Assembly: GCF_958295425.1 (NCBI RefSeq)
Contig: NC_081141.1
Location: forward strand, 18,941,180 to 19,005,179
From: Solea solea
Lineage: Eukaryota; Chordata; Actinopteri; Pleuronectiformes; Soleidae
DNA length: 64,000 nucleotides
Reading direction: 5' to 3'
A program made the position numbers and the translations under genes. Every line of letters begins with the position of its first letter. Position 1 is the stretch's first letter. The notes under the pieces are model-generated. The model saw nothing but the letters and a program-made list of their open reading frames with translations. It had not been told where the DNA came from and searched no databases. Below are positions 10,501 through 19,500 of this stretch, piece by piece.

Positions 10501-13500
10501 GAGGCCAGTGTCATATCCATGAGGCCACATGTTGGTTTTTTTTTTTTGTCCCTTTTTGGACGACATACTAAACTATGACATTTTTATCAATTTTTGGGCG
10601 ACATACTAAACTATGACATTTTGTCATATTTTGGACGACATACTTAACTATGACATTTTTATCAAATTTTGGGCGACAAACTAACCTATGACTTTTTTTG
10701 ACCGATTTTAGACGACATACTATACTTTGACTTTTTTTGTGATTTTAGACGACATACTATACTATGACTTTTTTTACCCAATTTGGACGACATACTATAC
10801 TATGACGTTTTTGAGTGATTTTGGACGACATACTATACTATGACGTTTTTGACCGATTTTGGAGGACATACTATACTATGACTTTTTTGACCGATTTTGG
10901 ACGACTTACTATACTATGACTTTTTTGACCGATTTTGGACGACATACTATACTATGACTTTTTTGACCGATTTTGGACGACATGCTATACTATGACGTTT
11001 TTGACCGATTTTGCACGACATGCTATACTATGATGTTTTTGATCGATTTTGGACGACATACTATACTATGGCGTGTTGGTGTCATTTAGTAGGACATCTT
11101 AAGAAAGGGATTCATGGGTTAGTGTAGTGGTTAGCACTCATGACTTTGGAGCAGAAAGGCGAGGTTCGATCCCTGGTTGGAACATTTCTGCATGCATTTA
11201 GGCAACATACTATAGTATGACATCTTTGAGTGATTTTGGACAACATACTATACTATGACGTTTTTGACCGATTTTGGACGACATACTATACTATGACTTT
11301 TTTGACCGATTTTGGACGACATACTATACTATGACATTTTTGACCCAATTTGGACGACATACTATACTATGACGTTTTTGAGTGATTTTGGACGACATAC
11401 TATACTATGACGTTTTTGACCGATTTTGGACGACATACTATACTATGACGTTTTTGACCCATTTTGGACGACATGCTATACTATGACGTTTTTGATCGAT
11501 TTTGGACGACATACTATACTATGACTTTTTTCACTGATTTTGGACAACATACTATACTATGACCTTTTTGACCTATTTTGGACGACATCCTATACTATGA
11601 CGTTTTTGACCGATTTTGGACGACATACTATACTATGGCGTGTTGGTGTCATTTAGTAGGACATCTTAAGAAAGAGATTCGTGGGTTAGTGTAGTGGTTA
11701 GCACTCATGACTTTGGAGCAGAAAGGCGAGGTTCGATCCCTGGTTGGAACATTTCTGCATGCATTTAGGCAACATACTATACTATGACATTTTTGAGTGA
11801 TTTTGGACAACATACTATACTATGACGTTTTGTACCGATTTTGGACGACATACTATACTATGACTTTTTTGAGGGATTTTGGACGACATACTATACTATG
11901 ACGTTTTTGACCGATTTTGGACGACATACTATACTATGACGTTTTTGATCGATTTTGGACGACATGCTTTACTATGACGTTTTTGATCGATTTTGGACGA
12001 CATACTATACTATGACTTTTTTGACCGATTTTGGACGACATACTATACTATGACGTTTTTGATCGATTTTGGACGACATACTATACTATGACGTTTTTGA
12101 GTGATTTTGGACGACATACTATACTATGACTTTTTTGACCGATTTTGGACGACATGCTATACTATGACGTTTTTGACCGATTTTGGACGACATGCTATAC
12201 TATGATGTTTTTGATCGATTTTGGACGACATACTATACTATGGCGTGTTGGTGTCATTTAGTAGGACATCTTAAGAAAGGGATTCATGGGTTAGTGTAGT
12301 GGTTAGCACTCATGACTTTGGAGCAGAAAGGCGAGGTTCGATCCCTGGTTGGAACATTTCTGCATGCATTTAGGCAACATACTATAGTATGACATCTTTG
12401 AGTGATTTTGGACAACATACTATACTATGACGTTTTTGACCGATTTTGGACGACATACTATACTATGACTTTTTTGACCGATTTTGGACGACATACTATA
12501 CTATGACGTTTTTGACCCAATTTGGACGACATACTATACTATGACGTTTTTGAGTGATTTTGGACGACATACTATACTATGACGTTTTTGACCGATTTTG
12601 GAGGACATACTATACTATGACGTTTTTGACCCATTTTGGACGACATGCTATACTATGACGTTTTTCACTGATTTTGGACAACATACTATACTATGACGTT
12701 TTTGACCGATTTTGGACGACATACTATACTATGACTTTTTTGACCGATTTTGGACGACATACTATACTATGACGTTTTTGACCCAATTTGGACGACATAC
12801 TATACTATGACGTTTTTGAGTGATTTTGGACGACATACTATACTATGACGTTTTTGACCGATTTTGGAGGACATACTATACTATGACGTTTTTGACCCAT
12901 TTTGGACGACATACTATACTATGACGTTTTTGACCGATTTTGGAGGACATACTATACTATGACGTTTTTGACCCATTTTGGACGACATACTATACTATGA
13001 CGTTTTTGACCCAATTTGGACGACATACTATACTATGACTTTTTTGACCGATTTTGGACGACATACTATACTATGACGTTTTTGACCCAATTTGGACGAC
13101 ATACTATACTATGACGTTTTTGAGTGATTTTGGACGACATACTATACTATGACGTTTTTGACCGATTTTGGAGGACATACTATACTATGACGTTTTTGAC
13201 CCATTTTGGACGACATGCTATACTATGACGTTTTTGATCGATTTTGGACGACATACTATACTATGACTTTTTTCACTGATTTTGGACAACATACTATACT
13301 ATGACCTTTTTGACCTATTTTGGACGACATCCTATACTATGACGTTTTTGACCGATTTTGGACGACATACTATACTATGGCGTGTTGGTGTCATTTAGTA
13401 GGACATCTTAAAAAAGGGATTCGTGGGTTAGTGTAGTGGTTAGCACTCATGACTTTGGAGCAGAAAGGCGAGGTTCGATCCCTGGTTGGAACATTTCTGC

Positions 13501-16500: not shown

Positions 16501-19500
16501 GACATACTATACTATGACTTTTTTGACCGATTTTGGACGACATACTATACTATGATGTTTTTGACCCATTTTGGACGACATGCTATACTATGACGTTTTT
16601 GACCCATTTTGGACGACATGCTATACTATGACGTTTTTGATCGATTTTGGACGACATACTATACTATGACTTTTTTCACTGATTTTGGACAACATACTAT
16701 ACTATGACCTTTTTGACCTATTTTGGACGACATCCTATACTATGACGTTTTTGACCGATTTTGGACGACATACTATACTATGGCGTGTTGGTGTCATTTA
16801 GTAGGACATCTTAGGAAAGGGATTCGTGGGTTAGTGTAGTGGTTAGCACTCATGACTTTGGAGCAGAAAGGCGAGGTTCGATCCCTGGTTGGAACATTTC
16901 TGCATGCATTTAGGCAACATACTATACTATGACATTTTTGAGTGATTTTGGACAACATACTATACTATGACGTTTTGTACCGATTTTGGACGACATACTA
17001 TACTATGACTTTTTTGAGGGATTTTGGACGACATACTATACTATGACGTTTTTGACCGATTTTGGACGACATACTATACTATGACGTTTTTGATCGATTT
17101 TGGACGACATGCTTTACTATGACGTTTTTGATCGATTTTGGACGACATACTATACTATGACTTTTTTGACCGATTTTGGACGACATACTATACTATGACG
17201 TTTTTGATCGATTTTGGACGACATACTATACTATGACGTTTTTGAGTGATTTTGGACGACATACTATACTATGACTTTTTTGACCGATTTTGGACCACAT
17301 GCTATACTATGACGTTTTTGACCGATTTTGGACGACATGCTATACTATGATGTTTTTGATCGATTTTGGACGACATACTATACTATGGCGTGTTGGTGTC
17401 ATTTAGTAGGACATCTTAAGAAAGGGATTCATGGGTTAGTGTAGTGGTTAGCACTCATGACTTTGGAGCAGAAAGGCGAGGTTCGATCCCTGGTTGGAAC
17501 ATTTCTGCATGCATTTAGGCAATATACTATAGTATGACATCTTTGAGTGATTTTGGACAACATACTATACTAGGACGTTTTTGACCGATTTTGGACGACA
17601 TACTATACTATGACTTTTTTGACCGATTTTGGACGACATACTATACTATGACGTTTTTGACCCATTTTGGACAACATGCTATACTATGACGTTTTTGACC
17701 CATTTTGGACGACATGCTATACTATGACGTTTTTGATCGATTTTGGACGACATACTATACTATGACGTTTTTGGCCGAATCTGGACGACATGCTATACTA
17801 TGACTTTTTTGAGTGATTTTGGACGACATACTATACTATGACATTTTTGACCCATTTTGGACGACATGCTATACTATGACGTTTTTGACCCATTTTGGAC
17901 GACATGCTATACTATGACGTTTTTCACTGATTTTGGACAACATACTATACTATGACCTTTTTGACCTATTTTGGACGACATACTATACTATGACGTTTTT
18001 GACCGATTTTGGACGACATACTATACTATGACTTTTTTCACTGATTTTGGACAACATACTATACTATGACCTTTTTGACCTATTTTGGACGACATACTAT
18101 ACTATGACTTTTTTCACTGATTTTGGACAACATACTATACTATGACCTTTTTGACCTATTTTGGACGACATACTATACTATGACGTTTTTGATCGATTTT
18201 GGACGACATACTATACTATGACTTTTTTCACTGATTTTGGACAACATACTATACTATGACCTTTTTGACCTATTTTGGACGACATACTATACTATGACGT
18301 TTTTGACCGATTTTGGACGACATACTATACTATGACGTTTTTGAGTGATTTTGGACGACATACTATACTATGGCGTGTTGGTGTCATTTAGTAGGACATC
18401 TTAAGAAAGGGATTCGTGGGTTAGTGTAGTGGTTAGCATTCATGACTTTGGAGCAGAAAGGCGAGGTTCGATCCCTGGTTGGAACATTTCTGCATGCATT
18501 TAGGCAACATACTATACTATGACATTTTTGAGTGATTTTGGACAACATACTATACTATGACGTTTTGGACCGATTTTGGACGACATGCTATACTATGACG
18601 TTTTTGATCGATTTTGGACGACATACTATACTATGACGTTTTTGAGTGATTTTGGACGACATACTATACTATGACTTTTTTGAGTGATTTTGGACGACAT
18701 ACTATACTATGACTTTTTTGAGGGATTTTGGACGACATACTATACTATGAAATTTTTGACCGATTTTGGACGACATACTATACTATGACGTTTTTGAGTG
18801 ATTTTGGAAGACATACTATACTATGACGTTTTTGAGTGATTTTGGACGACATACTATACTATGACATTTTTTACCCATTTTGGATGACATACTATACTAT
18901 GACGTTTTTGAGTGATTTTGGACGACATACTATACTATGACGTTTTTGACGGATTTTGGACGACATGCTATACTATGACGTTTTTGACCGATTTTGGACG
19001 ACATACTATACTATGAAGTTTTTGACCGATTTTGGACGACATACTATACTATGACGTTTTTGAGTGATTTTGGACGACATACTATACTATGACTTTTTTG
19101 AGTGATTTTGGACGACATACTATACTATGACATTTTTGACCCATTTTGGACGACATGCTATACTATGACGTTTTTGACCCATTTTGGACGACATGCTATA
19201 CTATGACCTTTTTGACGGATTTTGGACGACATACTATACAATGACTTTTTTGAGTGATTTTGGACGACATACTATACTATGACATTTTTGACCCATTTTG
19301 GACGACATGCTATACTATGACGTTTTTGATCGATTTTGGACGACATACTATACTATGACTTTTTTCACTGATTTTGGACGACATACTATACTATGACCTT
19401 TTTGACCTATTTTGGACGACATACTATACTATGACGTTTTTGACCTATTTTGGACGACATACTATACTATGACGTTTTTGAGTGATTTTGGACGACATAC

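Follow-up and report, generated by a model that had tools for sequence, protein, structure and literature searches.

The window, by which we mean the whole analyzed stretch of 64 kb of contig C27 of Solea solea (18941180–19005179), contains an array of a 38-bp satellite interrupted by ten tRNA-like cassettes (Table 1). As an exon with a UPA domain lies upstream of the array and a death-domain exon matching UNC5B downstream (E value 8e-16, with a sub-threshold Pfam Death match of 16.7 bits), this satellite of nearly 12 kb sits in an UNC5-like intron (window positions 7306–23611), on the strand of the gene; a BMPR1B-like exon is found further along the window. The cassettes span positions 11071–18537, all on the plus strand, and two types, A and B, follow each other in strict order five times. 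What the first-pass annotation had observed, namely ten tRNA-like cassettes at these positions in A–B alternation, is thus confirmed, while its interpretation is partly supported. No cassettes were found on the minus strand, and no further ones in the array up to position 22230.

The odd copies (type A) carry ATTCATGGG and ATAGTATGACATC, and the even copies (type B), ATTCGTGGG (GTCGG in copy 6) and ATACTATGACATT. Segmentation into monomers leaves a non-monomer insert of 84 bp in 10/10 cassettes, in place of the about 135 bp previously given for a cassette; the changed unit between monomer anchors measures 149 bp in the four even copies listed, and the odd copies show 187 bp (149 + 38), because their next monomer anchor is altered. 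Distances between neighbors equal 35 modulo 38 (30 after copy 7), and A–A and B–B distances equal 32 modulo 38 (27 where the 5-base deletion of copy 7 lies in between), so that same-type distances do differ by whole monomers, as had been proposed; the offset is constant since each cassette displaces the monomers by −3 in register (−8 for copy 7). The spacing ranges from 486 to 1403 bp, and hence the cassettes recur without even periodicity: of the periodic promoters suggested earlier, the boxes stand and the regular period does not.

Table 1. Coordinates of the satellite array, its cassettes, duplicated blocks, and neighboring features in the window
Feature	Position	Strand	Cassette start (GCGTGTTGG...)	A box	B box	Basis or remark
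UPA-domain exon	within 7306–7782
Antisense tRNA-like element bordering the array on the left, distinct from the cassettes	10462–10525	−				Rfam tRNA 20 bits, cut-off 29
38-bp satellite array	10543–22230	+				Tandem Repeats Finder; period 38, ~308 monomers
Cassette 1 (type A) insert	11098–11181	+	11071	11120	11163	Monomer segmentation
Cassette 2 (type B) insert	11665–11748	+	11638	11687	11730
Cassette 3 (type A) insert	12270–12353	+	12243	12292	12335
Cassette 4 (type B) insert	13407–13490	+	13380	13429	13472
Cassette 5 (type A) insert	13936–14019	+	13909	13958	14001
Cassette 6 (type B) insert	14921–15004	+	14894	14943	14986
Cassette 7 (type A) insert	16324–16407	+	16297	16346	16389	5-base deletion just downstream
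Cassette 8 (type B) insert	16810–16893	+	16783	16832	16875
Cassette 9 (type A) insert	17415–17498	+	17388	17437	17480
Cassette 10 (type B) insert	18400–18483	+	18373	18422	18465
Block with cassettes 2–3	11384–12519	+				Copy at 16529–17664 (cassettes 8–9); 1136 bp, 99.3%, diagonal scan
Block with cassettes 5–6	13552–15166	+				Copy at 17031–18645 (cassettes 9–10); 1615 bp, 99.8%, diagonal scan
UNC5B-like exon	23447–23611
BMPR1B-like exon	33469–33861	−

Using the A- and B-box motifs of RNA polymerase III (Pol III) promoters (TRGYNNARYGG and GGTTCRANNCC, respectively; pairs at 30–74 bases, either strand of the 64 kb), perfect pairs were found in the ten cassettes only, compared to a mean of 0.01 in 100 shuffles; allowing one mismatch per box yields 13 pairs vs. 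a shuffle mean of 0.69, and shuffling of one insert produced a perfect pair in 0/20000 cases. Thus, the claim that the boxes match better than random holds. The B box follows the A box at 43 bases, the first run of four T occurs 60–71 bases past the start of the B box, and no TTTT lies between the boxes of the window cassettes. With internal boxes at a working spacing and a downstream T-run as a putative terminator, the cassettes have the features expected of a Pol III tandem repeat; if transcribed, the predicted RNA, with its start taken 10 bases upstream of the A box and its end at the first T run, would be 113 (type B), 124 (type A), or 119 (copy 7) bases long.

Types A and B form separate groups, with support of 98/95, when the cassette alone is compared, but with 190 bp of flank per side the split appears in just 47% of bootstrap trees and is not supported; hence, the phylogenetic check proposed earlier yields the two clades for the cassettes and not for the cassettes with their flanks. 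According to the diagonal scan, in addition to the blocks in Table 1, the block around cassette 1 is repeated at cassette 3 (677 bp, 98.4%), that around cassette 2 at cassette 4 (774 bp, 97.7%), and that around cassette 3 at cassette 5 (668 bp, 99.3%). Multi-monomer blocks of 0.4–1.6 kb repeated at 96.7–99.8% constitute a higher-order repeat, and the A...B unit proposed earlier fits these duplications. The strict A–B order probably arises because segments holding an A–B unit were copied, and the alternation itself is an ordinary outcome of block copying. Two alternating forms are also seen by eye elsewhere, in the 26.2-Mb array of C27 (four pairs, one imperfect) and in the C34 array (two pairs).

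Origin and Distribution of the Cassettes

In the genome (642 Mb in 211 contigs), a cassette search in which 40 of 293 candidates were scored gave 41 matches, those outside the window being 79–86% identical and located at at least six other loci. With up to two mismatches allowed, the head pattern, which picks up both cassettes and dispersed short interspersed elements (SINEs), has 512 occurrences (0 for the reversed control); among 20 loci sampled from this list, five are 38-bp arrays and 15 contain no monomer. The same head is thus also present in dispersed copies outside arrays, and a dispersed SINE with this head was found at 2251 places with its anchors (control, 1). The cassettes have the tRNA-like head with A and B boxes that is typical of a tRNA-headed SINE, and 15 array inserts are 63–78% identical to the head of the full SINE in the C4 array described below and 79% identical, on average, among themselves. 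In one class of cassettes (type I, with shared junctions), alignment of the tails to the SINE body gives a score of 10 in six of eight arrays tested, which 1–5 of 3000 shuffles reach, and a lower score is obtained against the monomer, so that about 15 bases of the SINE body are retained in these arrays; the remainder of the body and the 3′ tail were not found in the cassettes. No body match was seen in C2, C30, and all three tails of the other class (type II), which counts against this origin.

Taking all this into account, the most plausible reading of the window cassette is a fragment of a tRNA-headed SINE, truncated and common to many arrays. The SINE, putatively of the V-SINE type, i.e., tRNA-headed with a conserved body, shares with the cassettes the head and, in type I, about 15 body bases, whereas the cassettes are devoid of the remaining body and tail. 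The 38-bp monomer is not SINE-like: compared with 14 SINE copies, it gave just 8-base matches (E value 6), so that the class of SINE-derived satellites was rejected, the repeat unit itself not coming from the SINE. A full-length tRNA-headed SINE with the ends TATACTATGAC/TATACCATGAC lies within a monomer of the C4 array (L009, reverse strand, 318–697) and is a possible present-day model for how a cassette begins. An old SINE may have been inserted in a monomer and later shortened, and the shortened head would have been copied within and between arrays. We consider a SINE origin, combined with alternation by block copying, quite probable.

For conservation analysis, 53 type I cassettes from 10 arrays on five contigs were collected with a 30-mer from the left arm, which lies outside the insert (control, 0), chosen to avoid picking cassettes by their boxes; the insert follows the 30-mer in 53/53 cases. 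These inserts share the left arm, as required by the search, and nearly always lie in the same monomer phase, and hence they diverged from each other following a single capture. This argues against repeated independent captures, in which SINEs would insert in these arrays many times, cassettes would mirror different SINE lineages, and the boxes would owe their retention to the need of SINEs for them in transposition. In favor of repeated captures, the SINE has many copies, the C4 array has a full one, and type II, as well as the variant at L012 9009, has different junctions. A single capture, while suggested for type I by its common junctions, does not extend to type II; overall, repeated captures seem improbable. 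The fit to a unit of 4 × 38 = 152 bp, considered as a selected register, is uneven: the register shift is mostly 0 or ±1 in type I arrays, compared to −3 in the window and +7 in the C30 array at 9.06 Mb, and varies in type II.

Cassettes were found at 14 known array loci on nine contigs (C2, C4, C26, C27, C30, C34, C35, C38, and C39). In 14 stretches picked for having a cassette, with L033 excluded due to its orientation switch, segmentation revealed 76 interruptions of 25 bp or more inside the arrays; by our own count, 73 of them contain a tRNA-headed cassette, while the remaining three correspond to the full SINE, the edge element seen in the window, and an insert of 618 bp. The 26-mer TTTTGGACGACATACTATACTATGAC has 65,680 exact copies in the genome (control, 0); given that it occurs 0.368 times per monomer in the arrays studied first, and 0.02, 0.30, and 0.54 times, respectively, in three stretches located by the monomer alone, the satellite makes up, very roughly, 1–2% of the genome. 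The latter three stretches (about 400 monomer anchors) contain no cassettes on either strand. Thus, the satellite can do without them, and presence in every array is ruled out, the cassettes marking a subset of arrays. A 21-mer of the monomer had no matches in a database of viral contigs.

Several features of the arrays were noted on the side. The left edge of the window array (10399–10540) contains one or two degenerate monomers and the antisense tRNA-like element, which is unlike the cassettes and yields an A+B pair at 10527 on the minus strand when one mismatch per box is allowed; another antisense tRNA-like sequence was noticed by eye past the end of the L009 array (reverse strand, 9095–9400). 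Arrays as parts of a larger mobile element were considered and rejected, since a BLAST comparison of the edges of five other stretches with the window edges gave monomer matches only, among the top 25 listed per query, and a short likeness by eye between window positions 10290–10340 and the L016 edge was not confirmed. In L033 (C38, 4.56 Mb) and L047 (C1, 2.81 Mb), the monomer orientation switches within a few kb, and two cassettes of L033 lie near the strand switch. L031 has a 3′ element of the UnaL2 long interspersed element (9371–9424; Rfam, 59.3 bits, above the cut-off) near an 821-bp insert that splits a type II cassette array.

Conservation of the Boxes and Decay of the tRNA Fold

To compare the boxes with their surroundings, we counted parsimony changes per column at the fixed box positions, in the rest of the insert, and in the right flank. 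In the 53 copies, the values are 0.12 for the fixed A-box positions, 0.75 for the fixed B-box positions, 1.48 for the insert remainder, and 1.71 for the right flank (fixed boxes vs. remainder, p = 0.0015; vs. flank, p = 0.0001). When each array is represented by one consensus, they are 0.12, 0.38, 1.16, and 0.74, respectively (all fixed box positions 0.25 vs. 1.16, p = 0.0007; vs. flank, p = 0.019). The difference persists after removal of CpG columns (p = 0.0079 for copies, 0.0013 for consensi). Degenerate positions within the boxes change as fast as the insert remainder (1.83 vs. 1.48). In a wider set of 73 cassettes, part of which was found via the A box, the box positions show 0.38 and 1.0 changes vs. 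2.26 (p = 0.0002); box conservation in type II is not free of how these cassettes were found, i.e., by head-based sampling.

Within the B box, T3, T4, C5, A7, and C10 are identical in 53/53 cassettes, position R6 shows 24 G and 29 A, and changes affect G1 in 19, G2 in one, and C11 in six. There are no violations of either motif in 33 copies, one in the B box in 13, two in the B box in six, and one in each box in one. A broken TTCRA core occurs in 0/53 cassettes vs. 18/100 dispersed SINEs listed with perfect anchors (own count, p = 0.0004), although the latter are not an age-matched control, as they are mostly young copies.

A number of observations speak against the boxes having been kept. Taken alone, the B box has weak support (p = 0.095 for copies, 0.035 for array consensi; without CpG columns, 0.18 and 0.037, respectively), and 20/53 copies have mismatches in it; counted by array (0/10), the TTCRA result has p = 0.36; the cassette L016_7610, from the set of 73 and outside the 53, has GTTTGA; and, as described above, three stretches of the satellite have no cassettes at all. 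We thus regard the predicted box retention as clear for the A box and modest for the B box.

These data bear directly on hitch-hiking, that is, a dead SINE fragment with idle boxes carried by satellite amplification, the apparent conservation being due to chance, low mutability, or short time. It would be consistent with most of the satellite seemingly managing without cassettes, with the non-significant B box in the 53 copies, and with the decay of the tRNA fold; however, it does not readily account for fixed box positions changing less than neighboring columns, also without CpG and on array consensi, nor for degenerate positions of the same boxes changing as fast as the remainder. We consider hitch-hiking a serious contender, although with somewhat less than an even chance.

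The fold was analyzed in 16 inserts, namely, the 15 array inserts and one SINE. Pairing is observed in 97% of cells in the D stem, 53% in the anticodon stem, and 72% in the T stem, and the covariation, 0.117, equals the shuffle mean of 0.117, being reached in 266/500 shuffles (465/500 for the cells paired). The true stem register pairs 73% vs. 30–46% in slid versions, which is expected from tRNA descent and yet is a point in favor of the fold. As the box positions changed least while the stems decay without covariation, these patterns suggest that the DNA boxes were kept rather than the RNA fold.

The tRNA-like nature noted in the first-pass annotation fits a fragment of a SINE head, and the window cassette is not recognized as a tRNA gene. 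ARAGORN predicts no tRNA genes in the window or in 22 loci, the Rfam scan of the window gives no matches at the cut-off, and the window cassette scores 14.7 bits against the Rfam tRNA cut-off of 29. The tRNA gene was therefore rejected, the cloverleaf being unrecognized by the finders and the stems lacking compensatory changes. Alone among the cassettes searched, that of C38 (L033) passes (34.4 vs. 29 bits), with a match to model positions 7–64 that lacks the acceptor stem; this would fit cassettes encoding a functional tRNA-like RNA, an explanation that the ARAGORN results, the low score in the window, and the decaying stems make very improbable. Rather, the substitution patterns suggest kept putative sites for TFIIIC/Pol III and not a kept RNA.

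Known Systems and Possible Role of the Cassettes

The first-pass annotation called a satellite with Pol III-like promoters unusual; this is true, but there are precedents in amphibians and squamates (PMC10702118). In squamate SINE-derived satellites, parts of SINEs, sometimes with box B, are amplified in tandem (Vassetzky et al., 2023, PMC10702118); as in the window, SINE portions occur within tandem arrays, whereas, as described there, the repeat unit is SINE sequence, and here SINE heads interrupt, at sparse intervals, an array of non-SINE 38-bp units. The Background section of the same paper lists Pol III tandem repeats of amphibians, namely, Xenopus OAX/satellite I, Rana/polIII, Hydromantes Hy/polIII, and newt PolIII/TAN, the last of which is stated to be transcribed in vitro. 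These also have a tRNA-like sequence within a tandem repeat, but, according to that section, inside a unit of 200–360 nt or longer, compared to one head per 486–1403 bp of 38-bp monomers here. In Entamoeba (PMC2652664), genes transcribed by Pol III likewise alternate with tandem repeats of short units, but these genes are real tRNA genes of a protist arranged in arrays, in contrast to degenerate SINE heads in a fish intron. For the croaker, a centromere repeat of 42 bp has been reported (PMC12631908).

Tandem repeats containing SINE or tRNA-like portions have been described in amphibians and squamates, so that the present case, in which the promoter head of a SINE sparsely punctuates a short satellite unrelated to it, is a variant of these. 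No SINE heads punctuating a short fish satellite were recognized in topic searches of the literature, whose coverage leaves out most subscription journals, and the sequence strings gave no literature matches.

The origin and the alternation are well supported and fairly ordinary; what is new, and can be put to the test, is the retention of the boxes. Our overall explanation, with chances that we put slightly above even, is that the cassettes are SINE heads copied within and between arrays, whose boxes were kept as likely TFIIIC/Pol III sites. Once captured, the heads would have kept the A box and, with less certainty, the B box, whereas the tRNA fold would have decayed, and the cassettes most likely act, or long acted, as TFIIIC/Pol III binding sites in the satellite. 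Taken separately, kept binding at the cassettes is a tentative proposal, which we hold at a little under even chances. Such binding could aid copying and persistence of an array, or mark or bound its chromatin. The stronger version, in which sparse SINE-captured promoters are actively kept in a vertebrate satellite and TFIIIC/Pol III helps arrays copy, persist, or be bounded, seems rather unlikely; if it held, selection, possibly selfish, would act on the DNA boxes, not on the RNA.

If the boxes are truly kept, one genome offers a comparison of cassette-bearing and cassette-free arrays, and A and B cassettes, which differ in their predicted terminators, would give another built-in comparison. 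In that case, a satellite may retain Pol III promoters or even owe its spread to them.

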